Below, in pieces: positions 3,511-27,630 of a stretch of 36,624 bases of DNA. How positions within the stretch are numbered: position 1 is the stretch's first letter; every line of letters starts with the position of its first letter. Below the pieces are notes generated by a model. That model saw nothing but the letters and a program-made list of their open reading frames with translations. It had not been told where the DNA came from and ran no database searches. Position numbers and translations under genes: made by a program. Source of the stretch: Acetobacteraceae bacterium (GTDB lineage Bacteria; Pseudomonadota; Alphaproteobacteria; Acetobacterales; Acetobacteraceae); the NCBI GenBank assembly GCA_025360065.1, contig JANYCX010000157.1:1-36624 (forward strand), given 5' to 3'.

Positions 3511-5084
3511 TGCTCCACCGCCCGGCCCTTGAGCGGGAACATCCCGCGCGGCTTGCGCTGGATGAACAAGATCAGCAGCACCAGCACCAAGATTTTGCCA
3601 AGCACGGCGCCGGCGATCGGTTCGAGGAACTTGTTGACGATACCCAGTGTCAGCGCGCTGACGACCGTACCCCAGAGATTGCCGACGCCGCCGAACACTA
3701 CCACCATGAAGCTGTCGATGATGTAGCCTTGGCCAAGATTGGGGCTGACATTATCGATCTGGCTCAACGCGACGCCCGCCATGCCGGCAATGCCCGACCC
3801 GAGGCCAAAGGTCAGTGCGTCAATCCAAGGGGTGCGAATACCCATGGCCGCCGCCATCCGACGGTTTTGTGTCACCGCCCGCATGCGCAAGCCCAAAGCG
3901 GTGTAGCGCAGCACCGCCAGCAAAGCGGCCAGCACCAGCACCGCAAATACAACGATGGTCAGGCGGTTATAGGTCACCGTGACGCCACCCCATTCGGTCG
4001 CGCCACTCATCCATTTCGGCGTGCCGACATCGCGGTTATTGGCGCCGAACAGACTGCGCACCGCCTGCTGCAGCACCAGCGACAAGCCCCAGGTCGCCAG
4101 CAAGGTTTCCAAGGGCCGGCCATACAAGAAACGGATCAACCCACGCTCAATCACGATGCCGATGCCGCCCGAAACCAGAAACGCCAGTGGCACCGCGATG
4201 AACAGGCTCGCCTCGAACAACCACGGCGCGCGGGCGCGGATCACTTCTTGCACCACGAAAGTGGTGTAGGCGCCGATCATCACCATTTCGCCATGCGCCA
4301 TGTTGATCACCCCCATCACCCCGAAGGTGATGGCAAGCCCGGCGGCAGCGAGCAGCAGCACCGAGCCGAGCGACAAGCCGTAAATCACACTTTGCACCAG
4401 CGACCAGAGTTGCTGCAGCCGGGCCAGCGCGGTCAGCGCCTCGCCTGCCGCATTGGCCACCGCCGGGGTTTGATCGCGCAACGATCCCAGCAGCGATTGC
4501 GCTTCCAATCCGCCCTTGGCGCGGATGATCGCCACCGCTGCCAGCTGCTCGGCTTCGGTCGCGTCCGGGTTGGCGAGTTGGCTCGCGGCCTGCGCCTGGC
4601 GTATCACCACGCGGACGCTGTCATTGGTTTCACCCGCAATCGCCTTGGCCAGTGCCGGCAAGATGGCTGGGTCACGCGACAGGAAAACGGCGGCAGCGGC
4701 CTTGCGGCGGATATCCGGGGTGGCTGCGAACAGATCGAGGCTGCCAAGCGCTGCATCGACCGCGCGGCGCACTTTATTGTTCACGCGGACAGCGATCAGA
4801 TCATCCTCAACCACATCGGCGACCGGCGCACCGGTGCGGGCATCGACATAGCCAGCGTCGGCCTTGATCAGCAAACTGCCGTCCGGCGCCGCATACAGCG
4901 TTTCGTCATGGATGGCGTGAATGGTGGGGGATGCCTGCTTGTCGCCGCTGAGGGCGAGTGCGGTGATCGCGGCGCCAATGGCATCGAAATCATTGGAGCC
5001 GAGGCCAGTGAAGGCGTCTTCGCTCTGCGCCATGGCGGGGGCGGTGAGCAGGATGAGCACAAGGCAGGTTCTCAGGAAATTCAT
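3507..5084 (-). CDS. urtB: Urea ABC transporter permease UrtB
   Basis: A 525-residue UrtB. Unlike LivH it carries a long N-terminal extracytoplasmic region: a signal peptide (MNFLRTCLVLILLTAPAMAQ) followed by about 200 residues of alanine-rich helical sequence, then the LivH-like membrane domain from about residue 230 with the GVMGVINMAHGEMVMIGAY signature and the QNRRMAAAMGI cytoplasmic loop. That architecture and length are diagnostic of UrtB. The ATG at 5084 follows directly on a cleavable signal sequence, so this start is preferred; its ribosome site is weak. The 178-nt gap to urtA is filled by a long palindromic repeat (5104-5249), unusual for an otherwise overlapping operon. Confidence 0.95.
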   Translation of the reverse strand: MNFLRTCLVLILLTAPAMAQSEDAFTGLGSNDFDAIGAAITALALSGDKQASPTIHAIHDETLYAAPDGSLLIKADAGYVDARTGAPVADVVEDDLIAVRVNNKVRRAVDAALGSLDLFAATPDIRRKAAAAVFLSRDPAILPALAKAIAGETNDSVRVVIRQAQAASQLANPDATEAEQLAAVAIIRAKGGLEAQSLLGSLRDQTPAVANAAGEALTALARLQQLWSLVQSVIYGLSLGSVLLLAAAGLAITFGVMGVINMAHGEMVMIGAYTTFVVQEVIRARAPWLFEASLFIAVPLAFLVSGGIGIVIERGLIRFLYGRPLETLLATWGLSLVLQQAVRSLFGANNRDVGTPKWMSGATEWGGVTVTYNRLTIVVFAVLVLAALLAVLRYTALGLRMRAVTQNRRMAAAMGIRTPWIDALTFGLGSGIAGMAGVALSQIDNVSPNLGQGYIIDSFMVVVFGGVGNLWGTVVSALTLGIVNKFLEPIAGAVLGKILVLVLLILFIQRKPRGMFPLKGRAVEQ

Positions 5085-5103
5085 TTAAGACCTACTCAGG
5101 CAA

Positions 5104-5249
5104 GGATGTTCTTTTTGTGAACAAAAAGAACCAAAAAAACTTTTTATCACTTTCCTGCCGTTGGCGTACGCACTCACCGAGTACGTACGCCGGAGGCAAC
5201 AAATTCGGAAGTTCTTTTGCTTCTCTTCTTTCAAGAAAAGAAGACCTTC
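5104..5249. repeat. Long intergenic palindromic repeat, copy A
   Basis: Sits between urtA and urtB. The left end holds an 11-bp inverted repeat GTTCTTTTTGT / ACAAAAAGAAC with a GA loop, then CAAAAAAACTTTTT, then TGCCGTTGGCGTACG. The right half is the same sequence inverted but more degenerate (GTACGCC, GGCAACAAATT, AAGTTCTTTTGCTTC, ending AAGAAGACC). The whole unit can fold into one long hairpin. The same unit occurs at 27446-27590 (best preserved), and its right half alone at 7557-7626. Short frames reading through it give lysine/phenylalanine-rich peptides and are not real genes. Confidence 0.85.
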
Positions 5250-5262
5250 CTGGCTTGCTGCC

Positions 5263-6576
5263 TTACTTGGAAGCCCCACCGCATTTGCCAGTCACGACAT
5301 TGAAGTTGCCGCACGACAAAGGCGCACGCCAATCAGCGATCAGGTCCTTCGATCCTTCAAGATATGGCGACCATTCATTGGCGACCACGGTGCCGGACGT
5401 CTGCCACACCGTGTTCATCTGGCCGTCGGCGCGAATTTCACCGATCAGCACTGGCTTGGTGATGTGGTGGTTCGGCATCATGGCGGAATAACCACCGGTC
5501 AGGTTCGGCACCGAAATGCCCACCATCGCGTCGATCACTTTCGCAGGGTCCGTTGTGCCGGCCTTCTGCACCGCTTTGATCCACATGTTGAAGCCAATGT
5601 AATGCGCTTCCATCGGATCATTGGTGGTCCGCTTGGGGTTCTTGGTATAGGCCTTCCACTGCGCAATGAACGCCTTGTTGGCCGGATTATTGACGCTTTC
5701 GAAGTAATTCCACGCGGTCAGATGGCCAACCAGCGGCTTGGTGTCGATGCCGGCGAGTTCTTCTTCGCCGACCGAGAACGCCACCACCGGAATATCGGTC
5801 GCCTTGATGCCCTGGTTACCGAGTTCTTTGTAGAACGGCACGTTGGCGTCGCCATTAATGGTCGATACCACGGCAGTCTTCTTGCCGGCCGAGCCGAACT
5901 TCTTGATCGAGGCCACAATATTCTGCCAGTCGCTGTGGCCGAACGGGGTGTAGTTGATCATGATGTCGTCGGCGGCAACGCCTTTGGCCTTGAGATAGGC
6001 TTCAAGGATTTTGTTGGTGGTGCGCGGATAGACATAGTCGGTGCCGGCCAGCACCCAACGCTTCACTTTTTCGTTCGCCATCAAATAATCAACCGCCGGG
6101 ATCGCCTGCTGGTTCGGCGCCGCACCGGTGTAGAAGACGTTCTTGCTGCTTTCCTCGCCTTCATACTGCACCGGGTAAAACAGAATATTGCCGGTTTCTT
6201 CGAAAACCGGCAGCACCGATTTGCGCGACACTGACGTCCAGCAGCCAAACACCGCCGCAACCTTGTCAACGGTAATCAATTGGCGAGCTTTTTCGGCGAA
6301 CAGCGGCCAGTTCGATGCCGGATCGACCACTACGGCCTGGAGCTTGCGGCCGAGCAAGCCGCCCTTTTTGTTCTGTTCTTCGATCAGCATCAGCATGACA
6401 TCTTTCAACGTCGTCTCGCTGATCGCCATGGTGCCGGACAGCGAATGCAGAATGCCGATTTTGATCGGCGGCGGGGCGGGGCTCTGGGCCTGAACCTGCG
6501 GGGCTAACATGGTGGTGGCGGCGAGGGCGGCGGTGGCCAACCCTATGCCGCGAAGCCAATGTCGCATTGATGCCAT
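5263..6576 (-). CDS. urtA: Urea ABC transporter substrate-binding protein UrtA
   Basis: A 437-residue periplasmic binding protein of the UrtA/FmdD type, normal length. The N-terminus has a signal peptide ending near VQAQ (positive RHWLRG, then a hydrophobic run). Family blocks are IKIGILHSLSGTMAISE, NKKGGLLGRKL, VFGCWTSVSRKSVLPVFE, NILFYPVQYEGEE and NDPMEAHYIGFNMW, all typical of urea rather than leucine binding proteins. The frame is open to 6636, but the ATG at 6576 is preferred because GGAAA lies about 7 nt upstream; the ATG at 6567 is a second possibility. A sigma-54 promoter lies at 6655-6670, so it is likely induced by nitrogen limitation and leads the urt-ure operon. Confidence 0.95.
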   Translation of the reverse strand: MASMRHWLRGIGLATAALAATTMLAPQVQAQSPAPPPIKIGILHSLSGTMAISETTLKDVMLMLIEEQNKKGGLLGRKLQAVVVDPASNWPLFAEKARQLITVDKVAAVFGCWTSVSRKSVLPVFEETGNILFYPVQYEGEESSKNVFYTGAAPNQQAIPAVDYLMANEKVKRWVLAGTDYVYPRTTNKILEAYLKAKGVAADDIMINYTPFGHSDWQNIVASIKKFGSAGKKTAVVSTINGDANVPFYKELGNQGIKATDIPVVAFSVGEEELAGIDTKPLVGHLTAWNYFESVNNPANKAFIAQWKAYTKNPKRTTNDPMEAHYIGFNMWIKAVQKAGTTDPAKVIDAMVGISVPNLTGGYSAMMPNHHITKPVLIGEIRADGQMNTVWQTSGTVVANEWSPYLEGSKDLIADWRAPLSCGNFNVVTGKCGGASK

Positions 6577-6654
6577 AAACAGTTTCCTTTTACCAAGCTG
6601 TGACGGCGAGAATGACGCAGGCTTAGTCGCCCGCACCGATGCCGTCAGTGGCTA

Positions 6655-6670
6655 AGCAAGCGCCATGCCA
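6655..6670 (-). promoter_or_regulatory. Sigma-54 (RpoN) promoter for urtABCDE-ureDA
   Basis: On the minus strand the sequence reads TGGCATGGCGCTTGCT. This matches the RpoN consensus TGGCAC-N5-TTGCW with one difference and exact spacing (GG at -24, GC at -12). Transcription would start near 6645, about 70 nt upstream of the urtA ATG. Sigma-54 control with NtrC is established for many urea and other nitrogen-scavenging operons. I do not see a convincing NtrC dyad in the remaining part of the 252-nt intergenic region (6577-6828), which is otherwise AT-rich around 6710-6750 and holds no gene. Confidence 0.75.
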
Positions 6671-6828
6671 GAAGGTTCCCTCACGATAACAACGCGGAAT
6701 CGCCTAAATTATGCCTAAAATTTCGTCATATTTTTAAAGAGGAGTAAAAATAAGGCAGAACTGCGACGTCCGGCAGGCAAGAGCAACCGTGATAGCCAAG
6801 GCCCCTGGCGGGATGACCGTGGCCAACT

Positions 6829-7452
6829 TCACTCCATTTTTGGCGCGGTTTTGCTGTCTGGCGTGACATCGACTGCGCTTGCGTGGCCGGTGATCCGCGC
6901 AGGCGGCTTACAGTCGGTCATGCACGGGGTGGCAACCCAGAAGCCGCGCTCGGCAGTTTCGCGGTCATCGTCATAAAATCCCGCTGCATTGGGCATCTTG
7001 ATGGTGGGCAGATTGGCCTGGGACGCGACAAAATCGTCCTTGACGATATCATTCAGATTCAAAATAAACGCCACCAGCGCGTAGATTTCGTCGGACTGCA
7101 ACGATTGCGCCTGGCCAAACGGCATGGCCCGGCGGATGTAATCGAAAGCCGTGGTGGCATGCGGCCAATAGGACCCCACGGTCTTGAACGGTCGTTCATG
7201 GGCCAGCGTGCCGACGCCACCGGCGAGCTCCGGCCAACGGCCGGCGCCCTCGCCAAACTCGCCATGACAGGCGGCGCAGCGTTCCAAGTACAGCGTCTCG
7301 CCCTGTTTCACGCTGCCTTGGCCGCGGGGCAGGCCCTGCCCGTCCGGGCGTGCATCGATGTCCCAGGCGGCGATTTCGGCGGGCAGGGGAGGGCGGCCGA
7401 CCGGGAGTTCGGCGGCGGAGAGATTTACGCACATCGCCGCAAGCATCGTCAT
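6829..7452 (-). CDS. soxD: Monoheme cytochrome c of the sulfane/sulfite dehydrogenase (SoxD-type)
   Basis: A c-type cytochrome directly downstream of soxC, so the electron acceptor subunit of the SoxCD/SorAB-type molybdenum enzyme in the periplasm. One heme motif, CAACH, lies near residues 59-63 with GEFGEGAGRWPELAGG after it; later SIRRAMPFGQAQSL-like sequence supplies the axial Met. C-terminal TIKMPNAAGFYDDD is typical of SoxD N-terminal domains. At 207 residues it is the single-heme form; the second heme domain known from Paracoccus SoxD is absent. The frame is open to 7659, but its first 69 codons read through two intergenic repeats. The best start is ATG at 7452, which lies inside a repeat arm; the resulting signal peptide MTMLAAMCVNLSAA lacks the usual positive charge. 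The exact N-terminus is therefore uncertain. Confidence 0.82.
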   Translation of the reverse strand: MTMLAAMCVNLSAAELPVGRPPLPAEIAAWDIDARPDGQGLPRGQGSVKQGETLYLERCAACHGEFGEGAGRWPELAGGVGTLAHERPFKTVGSYWPHATTAFDYIRRAMPFGQAQSLQSDEIYALVAFILNLNDIVKDDFVASQANLPTIKMPNAAGFYDDDRETAERGFWVATPCMTDCKPPARITGHASAVDVTPDSKTAPKME

Positions 7453-7530
7453 TGCGAGCCCTTGCCAAGCAATCCATCTTTCTATCGCCGAGCACCAAGG
7501 TGGATTGCTTGGCAAGGACTCGCAATGACG
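7447..7530. repeat. 84-bp inverted-repeat element with 30-bp arms
   Basis: Left arm 7447-7476 begins CGTCATTGCGAG and ends CAAGCAATCCA; right arm 7501-7530 is its reverse complement with 29 of 30 positions matching. The 24-nt loop (7477-7500) shows no gene. The CGTCATTGCGAG/GCAATCCA pattern resembles a dispersed non-coding palindrome seen in many proteobacterial genomes (recalled, not searched). The left arm contains the ATG proposed as the soxD start codon. No transposase is adjacent, so it is either a MITE-like element or a mobile palindrome. Confidence 0.85.
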
Positions 7531-7556
7531 AGGTTGGGGCGCCGCGCGCTCTCCTT

Positions 7557-7626
7557 GGTCCCACGCCAAAGGCAACAAATTAGTGAAGTTTTTTTGCTTC
7601 TTTTTGTTCACAAAAAGAAGACCTTC
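7557..7626. repeat. Half copy of the long palindromic repeat, copy B
   Basis: Corresponds to the right half of the elements at 5104-5249 and 27446-27590: CCCACGCCAAAGGCAACAA, then GTGAAGTTTTTTTGCTTC, then the 11-bp inverted repeat CTTCTTTTTGT / ACAAAAAGAAG with a TC loop, ending AGACCTT. No left half is present; the 84-bp element at 7447-7530 lies where it would be expected. Together they fill the 175 nt between soxC and soxD. The terminal hairpin followed by the soxD side could attenuate transcription from soxC into soxD. Confidence 0.8.
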
Positions 7627-7627
7627 C

Positions 7628-8887
7628 CTAAGAAACCTCAACATTCTCACAAATCCCATCCCCCCGCAGCAACCAGGTCTGAATGCCGTTGTTATGATAA
7701 ATCGAATTCACCCCGCGTATCTTGCGAAGGTCGTTCTTGCTGGGTTGCAAATACCCGGTGCTGTCCTGCGCCCGTGATTGCAGCAGCATTTCCTGCCCGT
7801 TCCAGTCGATATCGGCATAAAACCGCACCAGTGCCAAGGACTGCACCGGCCCGTCGATCCGCGCCGCCTGCCAGTTGCGCCCGCCATCGAGCGAGACATC
7901 CACCCGTGTAACGCTGCCGCGCCCCGACCAGGCAATGCCGCTGATCACCATCTGGCCCTTGGGCGAGGCTGCGGTTTGCGGGCTGGGGCTGGTGATCACC
8001 GATTTGGCGTCCATCACGAAGGTGGATCGGCGCGCCCGGCCATCGGCCAGCAGGTCGGTGTATTTCGAGGTTTCTTCACGGGTTTCCCAAGGTGCGTCGC
8101 CGATCTTGAGTCGCCGCAGCCACTTTACCCACATGTTGCCCTGCCAACCCGGCACCACCAGGCGCAGCGGGTAGCCCTGTTCCGGCCGCAGCGCCTCGCC
8201 GTTCATTGCAAAGGCGAGCATGCAATCATCCATCGCCTTGGCAAGCGGGATTGACCGATTAAGGCCGGCTGCATCGGCGCCCTCGGCCATCACCCATTTT
8301 GCCCGTGGATCAATGCCGAGCGCTTCGAACACGGATCGCAAACTCACCCCGGTATATTGCACGTTGTGGATCATGCCGTGGGTGAATTGCGCGCCGTTCA
8401 ACTGCGCGCCGCGCCATTCCATACCGGAATTGGCCGCACATTCGAGAAAGTAGATGCGGTTGCTGCGCGGCAGGCGTTTCAAATCCTGCATCGTCAGCAC
8501 CACGGGCTTGGCCACCATGCCGTGGATCATCAGCCGATGCTGATCCGGATCGACCGCGGCCACCCCGCTATGATGGCGCTCGAAACACAGCCCGTTCGGG
8601 GTGATGGTGCCGTCGAGCGCATGGATCGGGGTGAAGTTGACCGAGCTTTGCTGGCCCGCGGTCAGCCATTCGACATCGCGGCGGATGACGTGCTTCTCGA
8701 ACGGGGACGGCACGCCGTAGGGATGGGCCTGCACGCCGTCGCCCAGACTCTGGCTCCAGTCCGGCAGGGTGGTGATCGCGGGATCTGGGGTGGCAGCGGT
8801 CGCGGGCATCGCAAATGTGGTTGCGGCCGCAGCCACCAGTGCCCGCCGGCCAAGCCGATGCCGGTCAGGTGGTGATGAGTTTGACAT
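7628..8887 (-). CDS. soxC: Sulfane/sulfite dehydrogenase molybdopterin subunit SoxC
   Basis: A 419-residue sulfite-oxidase-family protein. Residues 13-31 form a Tat signal (GRRALVAAAATTFAMPATAA), as expected for a molybdenum enzyme exported folded. The catalytic cysteine is Cys150 in FLECAANSG, preceded by RIYFLE; LRLVVPGWQGNMWVKWLRRL and YPLRLV match the molybdopterin and dimerisation regions of SoxC/SUOX proteins, with the Mo-co dimerisation domain in the last 120 residues (VSLDGGRNWQAA). In the Sox multienzyme cycle SoxCD oxidises the sulfane sulfur bound to SoxY. The frame is open to 9181, but the start at 8887 fits the signal peptide and overlaps soxB by 23 nt. Confidence 0.93.
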   Translation of the reverse strand: MSNSSPPDRHRLGRRALVAAAATTFAMPATAATPDPAITTLPDWSQSLGDGVQAHPYGVPSPFEKHVIRRDVEWLTAGQQSSVNFTPIHALDGTITPNGLCFERHHSGVAAVDPDQHRLMIHGMVAKPVVLTMQDLKRLPRSNRIYFLECAANSGMEWRGAQLNGAQFTHGMIHNVQYTGVSLRSVFEALGIDPRAKWVMAEGADAAGLNRSIPLAKAMDDCMLAFAMNGEALRPEQGYPLRLVVPGWQGNMWVKWLRRLKIGDAPWETREETSKYTDLLADGRARRSTFVMDAKSVITSPSPQTAASPKGQMVISGIAWSGRGSVTRVDVSLDGGRNWQAARIDGPVQSLALVRFYADIDWNGQEMLLQSRAQDSTGYLQPSKNDLRKIRGVNSIYHNNGIQTWLLRGDGICENVEVS

Positions 8888-20547: not shown

Positions 20548-22089
20548 ATGAAGCCGCGCAACGTCCTGCTGATTGTCGTCGACCAATGGCGTGCCGACCA
20601 CGTGCCGCATCTTGGCGCCACCCACCTGCGGACCCCCAATCTCGATCGGCTGTGCCGCGAGGGGGTGAGCTTCCGCAATCACGTCACCACCGCCGTCCCG
20701 TGCGGCCCGGCGCGTGCCAGCCTGCATACCGGGCTATATTTGATGAACCACCGCCAAGTGCAGAACTGGGTGCCGCTCGACAGCCGCCACGCCACTTTGC
20801 CCCAGGCCGCCCGCGCCGCCGGGCACGATCCTGCACTGATTGGCTATACAACCACCGTGCCCGATCCGCGTCGCACCTCCCATAACGACCCGCGCTTTCA
20901 AAACCTTGGCGACACCATGGAAGGCTGGCGCAGCGTCGGCGAGTTCGGCCCCGATCATGATGGGTATTTCGGTTGGCTGGCGCAGAAAGGCTATCCGGTT
21001 CCGGCCCAGCGCGAGGATATCTGGCTGCCGGAAGGCGAGGACGCGATGGCCGGCGCCACCACCCTGCCGGCGCGCATTCCGAAAGACCTGTCCGACAGTG
21101 CCTATTTCACCGAAAAAGCCCTGACCTATCTCAAGGGTCGCGGTCAGAAGCCGTTTTTTCTCCATCTCGGCTATTACCGCCCGCACCCGCCGTTCGTGGC
21201 AAGCGCGCCCTATAACGACATGTATCAGGCTGCCGACATGCCGGCCCCGGTTCGCGCGCCGACTGCGGATGGCGAGGCCGCGCAGCATCCTTTGCTCGGC
21301 CACTATCTTCGGCATACCCGCCAGGCGAGCTTCTTCCAGGGCGGGCAGGGTATGGCGGCCGACATGGACGACGCCACCATCCGCCAGATGCGCGCCACGT
21401 ATTGCGGCATGATTGCCGAGGTCGATGACTGTCTCGGTCAGGTCTTCGCCTATCTGGACGAGGCGAAATTATGGGACAACACCCTGGTGGTGTTCACCTC
21501 CGACCATGGCGAGCAGCTTGGCGATCATCATCTGCTCGGCAAGCTCGGCTATCACGACGAAAGCTTCCGCATTCCGCTGGTGATCCGCGATCCGGATCTG
21601 CTGGAGGAAGCCGGCCGCATCGAAGACGCCTTCACCGAAAGCGTCGACCTGATGCCGACCATGCTCGACTGGCTCGGCGCCGACATTCCGCCGGCCTGCG
21701 ACGGGCGCAGCGTGATGCCGCTGCTTGAAGGCGCGCGTCCGGCTGACTGGCGAACCGAGCTGCATTACGAATACGATTTCCGCGAGACATTTCATTCCAA
21801 GGCCGAAGCCGAGCTTGGGCTCGCGATGGATGACGCGAACCTGATGGTGATCCAGGACGCGCACTGGAAATACGTTCATTTCACCGCCTTGCCGGCGCTG
21901 CTGTTCGACCTCACCGCTGATCCCCAGCAATTCACCAATCTGGCCGACGATCCCGCTTACGCAGCAATGGTGGCCGACTACGCCCAGCGCGCGCTGTCTT
22001 GGCGGATGCGGCATGCCGACAGGACGCTGACCCATTACCGGGCCTCGCCCACCGGGTTGCAGATGCGCACGCGCGGAGCCAGATCGTGA
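20548..22089 (+). CDS. Phosphonate monoester hydrolase-like enzyme (alkaline phosphatase/sulfatase superfamily)
   Basis: A 513-residue metallohydrolase. The sulfatase-type nucleophile motif is C52-G-P-A-R56 (CxPxR), where Cys52 would be converted to formylglycine. Metal ligands are in VVDQW (Asp12) and TSDHGEQLGD (Asp319, His320). The stretches QNWVPLD, LIGYTTTVPDPRRTS, DIWLPEGEDAMAGAT, FLHLGYYRPHPPFVA and LHYEYDFR closely follow the phosphonate monoester hydrolase/phosphodiesterase group (PMH; pehA in Burkholderia) as I remember it, rather than arylsulfatases. PMHs cleave phosphonate monoesters and phosphodiesters and are promiscuous towards sulfate esters. No signal peptide, so cytoplasmic. 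GGGGA precedes ATG 20548 by 7 nt (a GTG at 20545 is less likely). It overlaps the following SBP gene as GTGA. Transport by the operon would bring the substrate in intact. Confidence 0.85.
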   Translation: MKPRNVLLIVVDQWRADHVPHLGATHLRTPNLDRLCREGVSFRNHVTTAVPCGPARASLHTGLYLMNHRQVQNWVPLDSRHATLPQAARAAGHDPALIGYTTTVPDPRRTSHNDPRFQNLGDTMEGWRSVGEFGPDHDGYFGWLAQKGYPVPAQREDIWLPEGEDAMAGATTLPARIPKDLSDSAYFTEKALTYLKGRGQKPFFLHLGYYRPHPPFVASAPYNDMYQAADMPAPVRAPTADGEAAQHPLLGHYLRHTRQASFFQGGQGMAADMDDATIRQMRATYCGMIAEVDDCLGQVFAYLDEAKLWDNTLVVFTSDHGEQLGDHHLLGKLGYHDESFRIPLVIRDPDLLEEAGRIEDAFTESVDLMPTMLDWLGADIPPACDGRSVMPLLEGARPADWRTELHYEYDFRETFHSKAEAELGLAMDDANLMVIQDAHWKYVHFTALPALLFDLTADPQQFTNLADDPAYAAMVADYAQRALSWRMRHADRTLTHYRASPTGLQMRTRGARS

Positions 22090-23713
22090 GCAGGCTTGGC
22101 CGTCGCGCCGCGCTCGGGCTTGCCGCCGGCATCGCCCTGCCGCGTTTTGCCATCGGCCAGTCCGACACAAGACCTGCAATCCGCATCGCGGTGCAGCGCA
22201 TCGCTAACTCCAACACGCTGGATAATCTGCGCGAGCAATCCAATGTCGGCGAGCGCACGTTGCTGATGTTCAATGAGCGGTTGATCGATCTGGACTGGCA
22301 CGGCAATCTCGCGCCGCGCCCGGGTCTGGCGGAATCCTGGCGGCGGATTGACGATACGACCGTTGAGTTCATCCTGCGCAGCGGGGTGAAATTTCATAAC
22401 GGCGATATCATGACCGCTGAGGATGTCGCCTTCCGTTTCAGTGCCGATGTGATGTTCGGCGCCTTGCGCCCGACCGTCGATGGCAAGACCCTGCCGCACC
22501 GGTTTTCGGCGATCGTCGGACAGGCGTCGAAGGACTTGCCGGCGGAAATTCCGCCAGTGGCGCGGCGGCTGTTTCCGGGGCTGGACCGGGTGGACATCGT
22601 CGATCGCCGTACGGTGCGCTTCGTCAATGCGACCCCCGATGTCACGCTTGAAGGCCGCATCGCCGCTTCCGGCGCCGAGATCATTTCGCGTCGCGCCTTT
22701 ACCGAGGCGGCAAGCTGGCTCGCCTATGCGCGCAAGCCGGTCGGCACCGGCCCTTACATGATCCGGGAATTCCGGCCTGACACCATGCTGATCCTGGACG
22801 CGCATGATGCTTATTGGGGTGGGCGTCCGCCGGTCAAATCGATCACCTTGGTCGAAGTGCCGGAAGTGTCATCGCGCATCAACGGGCTGTTGTCCGGCGA
22901 ATTCCATTTTGCCTGCGACATCCCGCCCGACCAGATTTCCACCATCACCCGTGCCCCAGGCTTTGAGATCAGCGGCGGCACCATCCTCAACCATCGCCTG
23001 ACACCAGCTTCGACATCCACAATCCCGCGCTCCGCGACCCACGGGTGCGCCAGGCGTTCAGCCACGCCATTGACCGCCAGGCGATCATCGCGTCCCTTTG
23101 GGATGGCCGCACCAGCGTGCCGGCCGGGCTGCAATTTCCCTATTTTGGAGAGATGTCGGTGGCTGACTGGAAGGTTCCGGCCTTCGACCCCACCCGCGCC
23201 CGCGACTTGCTGCGTGCCTCCGGCTACAAAGGCGAGCCGATTCCGTATCGGCTTTTGAATAATGACTACACCAATCAGGTGGCGACATCGCAGGTGTTGG
23301 TCGAAATGTGGCGCCAGGTTGGCCTCAACGTCGAAATTAGCATGAAGGAAAACTGGACCCAGATCCGTGATCGGTCATCCCCGCGCGGGGTGCGTGACTG
23401 GTCGGCCGGTTCGGCGTTCAGCGATCCGGTCGGGTCGATCATTTCCAATTTCGGTCCAAATGGTGCCGCCCAACAGGCCGGCGAATACGCCAACGCTGAG
23501 TTCAGCAAACTCTGTGTTCTGCTCGAGACATCGGCCGATCGGGCGCTGCGCCGCAAGGCGTTCGCACGCATGCTGGAAATCGCCGAGCGGGATGACCCGG
23601 CCTATACCGTGCTGCACCAGAATGCGGCTTTTACCGGCAAGCGGCGCGATATCGGGTGGACGTCGATACCATCTTTCGCGATGGATTTTCGACCGGGGAA
23701 TTTTCGGGTCTGA
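22086..23713 (+). pseudogene. Second SBP_bac_5 gene, interrupted by a 1-nt frameshift
   Basis: Starts at GTG 22086, overlapping the hydrolase stop as GTGA, with a Tat-like signal (RLGRRAALGLAAGIALPRFA). The first frame reads as a family 5 binding protein through ILRSGVKFHNGDIMTAEDV and GTGPYMIREFRP to about residue 305 (TILNHRL), then turns into nonsense. From 23009 the -1 frame continues the family sequence with FDIHNPALRDPRVRQAFSHA and IDRQAIIASLW, to a proper C-terminus at 23713. Adding one base near 23001-23005 restores a protein of about 542 residues. The remaining codons look intact, so the break is recent or a sequencing error. As read, the product is truncated and non-functional. Confidence 0.85.
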
Positions 23714-23717
23714 AGGC

Positions 23718-23759
23718 AGGCAAGCTGTTCTTTTGTGAACAAAATGCAGCTTCTTGCCT
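23718..23759. terminator. Bidirectional hairpin between convergent operons
   Basis: AGGCAAG-CTG (23718-23727) pairs with CAG-(CTT bulge)-CTTGCCT (23747-23759), and inside it TTTTGT / ACAAAA pair across a GA loop. It lies 5 nt after the SBP stop and 4 nt before the antiporter stop, so it probably terminates both transcripts. The inner TTCTTTTGTGAACAAAA core is a short version of the terminal hairpin of the long repeats at 5104, 7557 and 27446. Confidence 0.65.
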
Positions 23760-25902: not shown

Positions 25903-25909
25903 TGCGCCG

Positions 25910-26041
25910 TGGAGCTGCTGGGTGCGTCAGGTCAACATCCCCAGGGCCAACTAGTACTCCCAGGGAGCTGGCTCTGATGTGATCTTGGTCACACTACCCG
26001 GTGCCCACCTGCTTACGCGGGCCTTGGGAGGATGTATAACC
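25910..26041 (+). ncRNA. ssrS: Candidate 6S RNA (SsrS)
   Basis: The region directly upstream of 5-formyltetrahydrofolate cyclo-ligase is the classical ssrS locus. The sequence folds as 6S RNA should. A closing stem pairs CATCC-CCAGGGCC (25936-25948) with GGCCTTGG-GA-GGATG (26020-26034), with GGU/ACC adding to the base. An internal bubble follows, with a small hairpin CCTGC/GCGGG on its 3' side (26008-26021, competing with two bases of the stem). The distal stem pairs GGGAGCTGG (25963) with CCCGGTGCCC (25997), topped by hairpin TGTGA-6 nt-TCACA (25978-25993). 6S RNA mimics an open promoter and sequesters RNA polymerase. Ends are approximate: the 5' end is set from the promoter, the 3' end from the stem. 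Length (about 130 nt) is on the short side. Confidence 0.68.
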
Positions 26042-26048
26042 AACGGCC

Positions 26049-26618
26049 ATGGCGGCTCCACACTCTGATCTTCCGGCCGCGAAGGCTGCTGCCCGCGCCA
26101 TTGCGATGTCGCGTCGTGATGCGTGCGACCCTGGGCTTGGTGCCGCCCTGGCGCGGCATGTGCTGACCGCAATCGACATTCCCCCCGATGCAATCATTGC
26201 CGGATTCTGGCCGATGGGCCGCGAAATTGATATTCGGCCATTGCTGGACGCGCTGTTGCGCCGGGGCCACTGCATTGCGCTGCCGGAAACCCCACCGCGC
26301 GGGCAACCGCTGATCTTTCGCCATTGGCAGCCCGGCATGGCGATGATTGCCGAGCGTTTTGGCACGCAGCGTCCGACGGGCGCAATCATCACCCCCGATC
26401 TGCTTTTCATCCCGTTGCTCGCCTTTGACCGCGCCGGAAACCGGCTTGGCTATGGCGGTGGCTATTACGACCACACCCTGGCCATCCTGCCGCGCGCGAC
26501 GGCAATTGGCTGCGGCTATGCGTGCCAGGAACTGGACGAAGTCCCGGCTGACGCTTACGACGCGCGCCTGTCGGCCATTGCCACCGAGGCAGGCATCATC
26601 ACCGTCGAAAGCTCCTGA
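26049..26618 (+). CDS. 5-formyltetrahydrofolate cyclo-ligase (5-FCL)
   Basis: A 189-residue 5-FCL/MTHFS family protein, normal length. It converts 5-formyltetrahydrofolate to 5,10-methenyltetrahydrofolate with ATP in the cytoplasm. The nucleotide/folate site motif LGYGGGYYDHTL is at about residues 133-144; other landmarks are FWPMGREIDIRPLL, IALPETP and DLLFIPLLAFD. The N-terminal AAKAAARAIAMSRRD corresponds to the conserved KxxxR helix, which supports the ATG at 26049 even though no good ribosome site is seen. It lies right behind the candidate 6S RNA, as ygfA follows ssrS in E. coli, and abuts the next gene with no gap. Confidence 0.93.
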   Translation: MAAPHSDLPAAKAAARAIAMSRRDACDPGLGAALARHVLTAIDIPPDAIIAGFWPMGREIDIRPLLDALLRRGHCIALPETPPRGQPLIFRHWQPGMAMIAERFGTQRPTGAIITPDLLFIPLLAFDRAGNRLGYGGGYYDHTLAILPRATAIGCGYACQELDEVPADAYDARLSAIATEAGIITVESS

Positions 26619-27431: not shown

Positions 27432-27445
27432 GATACCGCAGGTGA

Positions 27446-27590
27446 GATGTTCTTTTTGTGAACAAAAAGAACCAAAAAAACTTTTTAATACTCTGTTGCC
27501 GTTGGCGTGGGACTTCACCGCGGTCCTACGCCAACGGCGACAGAGTGAGGAAGTTTTTTTGCTTCTTTTTGTTCACAAAAAGAAGACCTT
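27446..27590. repeat. Long palindromic repeat, copy C (best preserved)
   Basis: Both ends carry an 11-bp inverted repeat: GTTCTTTTTGT / ACAAAAAGAAC (27449-27472, GA loop) and CTTCTTTTTGT / ACAAAAAGAAG (27562-27585, TC loop). Inside, CAAAAAAACTT (27473-27483) faces AAGTTTTTTTG (27551-27561), and CTCTGT-GCCGTTGGCGT-GGAC (27491-27513) faces GTCC-ACGCCAACGGC-ACAGAG (27523-27545), with only G-U type mismatches and a 9-nt loop. The element is one long hairpin with smaller hairpins at each end. It lies between the YmdB-type gene and the HisD-like gene. Same family as 5104-5249 and 7557-7626. Confidence 0.9.
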
Positions 27591-27630
27591 GCCTTACTGA
27601 CTTCACTCCCTTTCGTTTGGAGTCCGCCCG

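Follow-up and report, generated by a model that had tools for sequence, protein, structure and literature searches.

The ENEs of MALAT1 and PAN, which are eukaryotic and viral, form U·A-U RNA triple helices that clamp the poly(A) tail and protect 3' ends, and among bacterial operons a REP element lies between malE and malF. In clostridial ABC importers, internal terminators set the ratio of binding protein to permease (PMC9045158). Intrastrand triplex motifs have been known in bacteria since about 2000, the PIT elements or BoxC having been described by Hoyne and Maher (2000, 2002, as cited in PMC4666352), and the account of such motifs by Holder et al. 2015 (PMC4666352) has its focus on the G/C-rich TM-ECO, formerly BoxC/PIT. 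Its main text reports no gene-orientation bias for TM-ECO and, for earlier tests, no terminator activity (Hoyne and Maher 2002, as cited in PMC4666352); as far as that main text goes, there is neither an agreed function for the motifs nor evidence of covariation of the third strand, the string 'covari' being absent from it.

Here we describe a family of intergenic repeats in which evolution seems to be keeping a triple helix in the non-coding DNA or RNA of bacteria. The window, by which we mean the whole stretch of 36,624 nucleotides that was analysed, comes from an Acetobacteraceae bacterium and contains two complete units, one single arm and one collapsed miniature of the family (Table 1); the original prediction had named three related elements and a miniature, and all four sites are as it described them. 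Copy A lies between urtA and urtB; by NCBIfam names the gene set is urtABCDE, in agreement with the earlier assignment of these genes. The single arm lies flush with the stop codon of soxC, between soxC (7628-8809) and a gene at 6829-7452 that has weak cytochrome c matches. Directly adjoining this arm is an inverted repeat at 7457-7528, which starts CATTGCGAG.. and ends ..CTCGCAATGACG and which, judged by the title of PMC3733652, is of the CGTC-tagged REP type; the string CGTCATTGCGAG from it also occurs in loci L019, L068, L072 and L074 of the same genome. Elsewhere in the window, a 6S RNA (Rfam RF00013, 71.4 bits) lies on the plus strand at 25909-26062, and overlapping plus-strand frames at 22086-23258 and 23045-23713 look like one frameshifted gene of a putative binding-protein family, the frameshift being either real or an assembly error.

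Table 1. Positions of the repeat family members and their parts in the window.
Feature	Position	Strand	Description
Copy A, complete unit	about 5098..5251	-	urtA-urtB gap; minus strand is the gene sense
Copy A, downstream (left-type) arm	5108..5143	-	hairpin 5108-5131 and A-tract 5133-5139 (T-tract in sense)
Copy A, core stem	5144..5208	-	GCCGTTGGCG... type
Copy A, upstream (right-type) arm	5209..5243	+	tract 5212-5218, hairpin 5220-5243
Single arm	about 7561..7629	-	tract 7589-7595, hairpin 7597-7620
Miniature	23718..23759	unassigned (.)	outer ends and shortened hairpin, no A-tract; convergent gene gap
Copy C, complete unit	about 27441..27594	+	between a metallophosphoesterase-like gene and hisD
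Copy C, left arm			hairpin 27449-27472, A-tract 27474-27480
Copy C, right arm			tract 27554-27560, hairpin 27562-27585

A complete unit consists of two inverted arms around a variable G/C stem, and each arm is a 10-bp hairpin beside a 7-nt tract. Read outward from the core, an arm has AAG, the tract of seven T, a G, and the hairpin with its UUCA (or UGAA) loop. It is the outermost hairpin pair that distinguishes left-type from right-type arms. We aligned 42 sense-oriented codirectional units, 36 from the genome of the window itself (G000; assembly of 3.72 Mb in 252 contigs, 91.8% complete) and 6 from G004, one of its four congeners G001-G004; by two key columns of this alignment, the two arms of a unit are of different type in 32 units, of the same type in 2 and ambiguous in 8.

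The minimum-energy fold of single sequences is one long hairpin, and over the 35 complete rows the energy of this fold is -55, versus -47. The covariation supports three separate hairpins over that long one, in agreement with the earlier proposal of a larger hairpin with a smaller one at each end. In the 42-unit alignment the three-hairpin structure has 88.7% of its cells paired, with two-sided changes in 85 cells versus 38.0 in shuffles (0 of 500 shuffles as high) or, counted by pairs, 20 versus 14.7 (11 of 500 shuffles). The end hairpins are 95.4% and 96.1% paired, and where the upstream hairpin belongs to a second sequence type, 106 of 110 cells still pair locally and 173 of the 220 cells with letters on both sides pair across the two arms. 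The single long hairpin was rejected: it is the best by energy, yet its inter-arm covariation is that of the shuffles, 396 of 500 being at least as well paired. A closing outer stem was rejected as well, its own partners scoring 3.68 versus 3.89 for shuffled ones (1724 of 2000 as high, 31 rows). Given all 42 rows, RNAalifold predicted no pairing; restricted to the 35 complete rows, it recovered the two end hairpins and nothing else. Among core mismatches G·U numbers 53 versus 32 for A·C, and among the mismatches of the end hairpins there is no excess of G·U over A·C (7 v 10 and 2 v 5).

An A-tract had been listed as a block shared by the elements, and shared it is, but it is more than that: the tract covaries with the hairpin, and does so in parallel, or mirror, order. 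In the upstream arm of copy A, for example, a C at 5214 in the tract goes with a C at 5228 and a G at 5235 in the hairpin as one concerted change. For a pooled count we took 427 arms, 357 from Acetobacteraceae and kin and 70 from Rikenella, with repeats removed by context; loci of one genome under two names are included in this number, duplicates having been filtered by 100-nt context only, and to be counted an arm had to keep at least 9 of the 10 hairpin pairs and to lie in the AG-tract-G frame. Wherever the purine strand carries G at paired hairpin positions 5-9, the tract has C (80 of 80 cells; 47/47 in Rikenella and 33/33 in the rest). Opposite the 1,695 purine-strand A cells the tract has T in 1,690, C in 4 and A in 1, and opposite a purine-strand C, which marks an inverted pair, it has T in 338 and C in 1. 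Reversed DNA passed through the same arm filter yielded 0 arms versus 427. As the copies are related, a second count took each tract/hairpin combination once: the 38 distinct classes gave 11 matches versus a permuted mean of 1.47, with 0 of 10,000 permutations as high. When the two groups were held apart, giving 41 classes, a register shift of 1 or 2 left 0 matches and the reversed order gave 3 versus 13; the order being parallel, antiparallel pairing of tract and hairpin was rejected. Copying as a source of the pattern was rejected by reasoning, since DNA copying gives direct or inverted copies and never mirror ones.

The mirror rule holds in the Acetobacteraceae and in Rikenella (Bacteroidota), the letter codes of the two differing. 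Rikenella variants change in threes, from hairpin T-A to C-G (or from G-C to C-G) together with the parallel-opposite tract position, and among the rows listed there is no compensated hairpin change without a tract change, though such a change needs only two mismatches. In one Rikenella MAG, over 385 kb, all 38 in-frame arms, which fall into 7 classes, follow the rule from position 5 to position 9. Position 4 lies at the helix end, where in some arms a tract G faces C. The two arms carry different codes in 12 of 12 unit pairs of this MAG, and the rule is thus local. Within the Acetobacteraceae, a genome of another genus (G008) has 74 arms, 16 of them with C-G at position 9. A tract C accompanies this pair in 16/16 arms and is seen in 0/58 of the remainder, and G420 has this same code in the ten rows listed.

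A strip that corresponds to a purine strand in parallel order is what characterises a pyrimidine-motif triplex (T·A-T, C+·G-C), or else a purine motif on the other strand. An intrastrand T·A-T / C+·G-C triplex can produce mirror covariation; antiparallel pairing and copying cannot. From the triple covariation we infer that the arms may form a triple helix and that this helix may be active; for it to form, the basal four base pairs must melt or be bridged by one nucleotide. Three-way covariation in several codes and in two phyla is the kind of evidence by which RNA base pairs come to be accepted, applied here to base triples.

The original prediction held that the elements form a dispersed family in and between operons, and 98 units were called in the surveyed part of G000 (85 stretches fetched around copies, plus the window), unit counts being lower bounds in that some contigs (C110, C118) end within a copy. 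The 22-bp end palindrome, at up to 3 mismatches, has 133 sites in G000 and 0 for the backwards-pattern control, which excludes that the copies in the window are the only ones. Searching G000 by blastn with copy C gave at least 80 matches (40 of the 148 candidates scored; one copy can match on both strands). The left-arm and right-arm patterns, whose sets overlap, occur at 104 and 80 places in G000 at up to 3 mismatches and exactly at 43 and 19. An arm profile search of 896 kb of G000 and G004 DNA found 191 matches at E<0.1, or 169 arms once overlaps were removed, with 106 of 297 nhmmer matches left out at E>0.1; the reversed-DNA control gave 3 matches, every one at E>4.

The palindrome is present in all four congeners, and the palindrome/arm family in 8 of the 43 other same-family genomes sampled. 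Forward palindrome matches number 391 in G003, and G037 and G047 have 249 and 206 arms. Arm patterns occur in 2 of 398 sampled Pseudomonadota genomes, namely G000 itself and G420, both of the window's family and among the 6 genomes of that family in the sample; in 8 of 9 family genomes, most of these picked for having matches; and, out of 296 Bacteroidota genomes, in one, G473 itself. With 2/398 and 1/296 the exact arm is narrow, and a wide taxonomic distribution was rejected. When reference genomes were scanned with the exact 34-nt left arm, at least 111 stretches matched; the matches listed are from MAGs named Acetobacteraceae, Rhodospirillales, Rhodovastum, Asaia or Alphaproteobacteria, and also from five Rikenella or Rikenellaceae assemblies, of another phylum. 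The presence of the isolate genome Rikenella microfusus DSM 15922 among the matches argues against binning error. The Rikenella sequences shown differ outside the arm, and with up to 3 mismatches allowed, the arm counts of four Rikenella genomes are 59, 96, 81 and 26. Carriage by phages or plasmids was rejected, as neither blastn of copy C against plasmids and phages nor an exact 34-mer search of viral contigs gave a match at the sensitivities used.

On a G000 gene map made with a codon-usage gene caller, 55 of the 98 units lie in codirectional gaps, 26 in convergent and 7 in divergent ones, 9 are at a contig edge, and one, near a contig start, falls within a called gene; of the armless gaps in these loci that are 40 nt or longer, 78 are codirectional, 12 convergent and 65 divergent. 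Divergent (promoter) gaps are thus avoided (P=5e-9) and convergent gaps favoured (P=1e-5), and G004 goes in the same direction with few units (divergent 1/17 units versus 42/166 armless gaps, P=0.08). Complete units are codirectional in 36 cases and convergent in 3, single arms in 19 and 23 (P=4e-6). Position relative to stop codons, a measure already named with the original prediction, fits 3'-end elements, 71 of 107 stop-facing unit ends falling between -10 and +20 nt relative to the stop codon; units in codirectional gaps often extend to some 15-40 nt before the next start. There is a weak bias for the left-type arm to lie downstream (22 of 32 unambiguous units, 22 v 10, P=0.05; with ambiguous units 26 of 36, 26 v 10, P=0.011), 6 of 42 units having been left out of this scoring. 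In Rikenella, on a cruder gene map, no strong gene-position bias was seen: the unit pairs are 7 codirectional, 4 convergent and 1 divergent, against 89, 35 and 45 armless gaps, and the single arms are 8 codirectional, 1 convergent and 3 divergent, with 2 at edges. Among gaps of up to 400 nt, convergent ones with a single arm (e.g., L026, L030, L046, L072, L074, L077) recurrently have a palindrome near TTACGATATCGTAA or GTTTCGTTATCGAAAC at the far side, and at L060 8254-8390 in G000 a paired-hairpin repeat (TATACCAAGCGCCC...) adjoins a unit in a convergent gap.

Comparison with the congeners goes, like the mirror covariation, beyond the original prediction, in that copy A and the single arm of the window are common to sister species. 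Copy A is at the same place in G002, G003 and G004 and absent in G001; its downstream arm is nearly unchanged in all three orthologues (36/36 identical in G003, 35/36 in G004 and 35/36 in G002), and its upstream arm has decayed in two (35/36 in G003, 27/36 in G004 and 19/36 in G002). The single arm, for which the same three were compared, is orthologous in G002 and G004 and a remnant in G003. Over 6 orthologue pairs, identity is 213/216 for one arm, 186/216 for the other and 298/376 for the core; these are 6 of 7 pairs, L044/L146 being left out and the L052 and L085 orthologues having been chosen for having arms. The flanks of orthologous sites are mostly 85-97% identical. Arm identity between orthologues could stem from gene conversion.

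In 385 kb of G004 DNA not picked for arms, both flanks were found for 7 of the 98 G000 units: 3 sites keep arms (L029, L042, L044), 2 are remnants (L022 and the copy C site, L155, where a CGTC-type repeat has taken the place of most of the unit), 1 is empty and 1 has another repeat. The empty site corresponds to a single arm at L028 2994-3063 in G000 and is a 13-nt gap at L152 18879-18892 in G004, where the flanking genes overlap or touch with only 13 nt unaligned between them; no target duplication was recognised there. Copy A and some units are common to sister species, and others are reduced, replaced or absent there. The miniature, which had been taken as a terminator from which the family might have arisen, looks like a collapsed member rather than an ancestor, and its G004 orthologue (L154) is a different repeat, of the paired-hairpin TATACCAAGCGCCC... 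type.

We suggest, tentatively and at somewhat less than an even chance, that the family is an intergenic intrastrand-triplex repeat that acts in the RNA of the preceding gene, at 3' ends. The A/G-rich strand of the hairpin would bind the neighbouring T/C tract in parallel to give T·A-T and C+·G-C triples, two different arms, inverted, flanking the G/C stem. As transcription ran on past the stop codon, core stem, U-tract and downstream arm would all be made; the tract could then leave the RNA-DNA hybrid and dock on the hairpin, which would favour transcript release, and/or, once docked, could cap the new 3' end against 3'-5' exonucleases. Being inverted, the unit could act for both strands, and at urtA-urtB it would leave more mRNA for the binding protein than for the permease. 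The gene-end position, the avoidance of promoter gaps, the T-tract and the constancy of the arm favour a role of this kind, whether it lies in termination, in attenuation or in the protection of 3' ends. With units placed at gene ends, the function can be tested by reporter. It is possible, if rather doubtful, that the same holds as a general device, that is, that an RNA triple helix serves at gene ends in two phyla, the U-tract of a bidirectional terminator also supplying the third strand in a U·A-U/C+·G-C helix whose interchangeable codes are kept by three-way compensation; a search of the literature did not find a bacterial RNA triple helix at 3' ends.

Against a role in RNA only weigh the about equal fit of the two arms, the lack of a G·U excess in the hairpins and a simple scan of 4900-7800 that saw no canonical terminator. 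The downstream, RNA-capable arm fits the triplex rule in 29/37 cases and the upstream arm in 26/39 (P=0.31, no significant difference), much as would be expected if the triplex acted in DNA, as a single-strand fold formed during replication or transcription that affects replication or recombination, with gene position reflecting tolerated insertion space. A DNA-level triplex would have a purine motif on one strand and a pyrimidine motif on the other, as proposed for the TM/PIT motifs, which also provide its precedent (PMC4666352); the mirror rule fits A·A-T/G·G-C on the other strand equally well, and hairpins without G·U bias and the turnover of sites such as those of copy C and L028 in G004 are in keeping with it. 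We nevertheless consider it unlikely, since the depletion of divergent gaps, the flush placement at stop codons and the presence of copy A in three congeners with its downstream arm almost unchanged point to a gene-end function. That function could be served by an ordinary bidirectional terminator or a REP-like mRNA stabiliser whose hairpins and T-tract each work on their own, the mirror relation being a by-product of some other constraint. The gene-position data suit such an element, as do a core stem and a 7-T tract in both directions, the stem and the T-run having A/T-rich sequence between them, and internal terminators after binding-protein genes are known in ABC importers (PMC9045158); however, a simple terminator scan of 4900-7800 made no call inside copy A or the single arm, and the co-change of tract and hairpin in parallel order is not predicted, which leaves this reading quite unlikely.

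A very unlikely reading is that the units are non-autonomous mobile elements (MITE or REPIN-like), whose left and right ends are recognised by a transposase as folded single strands and whose position marks tolerated space in compact operons. High copy number, inverted ends, arms usually of different type within one unit, the occurrence in 8 of 43 other same-family genomes with an exact arm in Rikenella, and the empty L028 site would all be accommodated. The original prediction had noted no transposase nearby. A transposase search of G000, an assembly 91.8% complete, found one weak Y1 match (PF01797, 24.4 bits, contig C31) with no arm in the surrounding 6 kb, and linkage to a RAYT was rejected. 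Arms flanking a transposase were rejected too, two wide inverted arm pairs in G000 and G004 stretches having none (one is geneless, and the other, L024, holds a thiolase and an unmatched frame). The failure to recognise a target duplication and the lack of matches in plasmids, phages and viral contigs at the sensitivities used also speak against mobility.

The gene-end triplex reading can be set beside the known systems feature by feature. Six 18-22-nt arm strings had no match in the text of the papers searched, in which sequences split by line breaks would be missed. The docking of a U-rich strip on an A-U hairpin is like that of the MALAT1/PAN ENE, with no homology claimed. Like the internal terminators of ABC importers described in PMC9045158, the urtA-urtB unit is a stem-loop after a binding-protein gene and before a permease gene; unlike them, it is a member of a dispersed triplex-coded family. 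With REP, BIME and REPIN elements (PMC3733652, PMC3116915, PMC2817692) the family shares extragenic palindromes, often in inverted pairs, between genes, but it has no linked RAYT, its arm shows no GTAG or CGTC tag, and this arm includes a third-strand tract; on present evidence the family does not belong to the REP/RAYT systems. As a repeat of its own, the TM-ECO pattern has 4 occurrences in 511 kb of G000 loci (L016 3059, L024 3922, L030 1178, L058 3019), close to an A/T-rich arm in L016, L030 and L058. The arms of the present family do not fit the TM-ECO/BoxC pattern CCCTCNCCC-N3-6-GGGNGAGGG-N3-GGGNGAGGG, and differ from PIT/TM-ECO as described in PMC4666352 in being A/T-rich rather than G/C-rich, with a fixed AAG-tract-G(G/C)TTC..TTCA frame, in having several triple-covarying letter codes and, in G000, in being biased to gene ends. 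Alike in the two are a high-copy intergenic hairpin with a third strand placed by base-triple rules and, sometimes, inverted pairs. By this base-triple grammar, the closest known kind is that of the PIT/TM intrastrand triplex repeats, of which the present family may be regarded as an A/T-rich variant.
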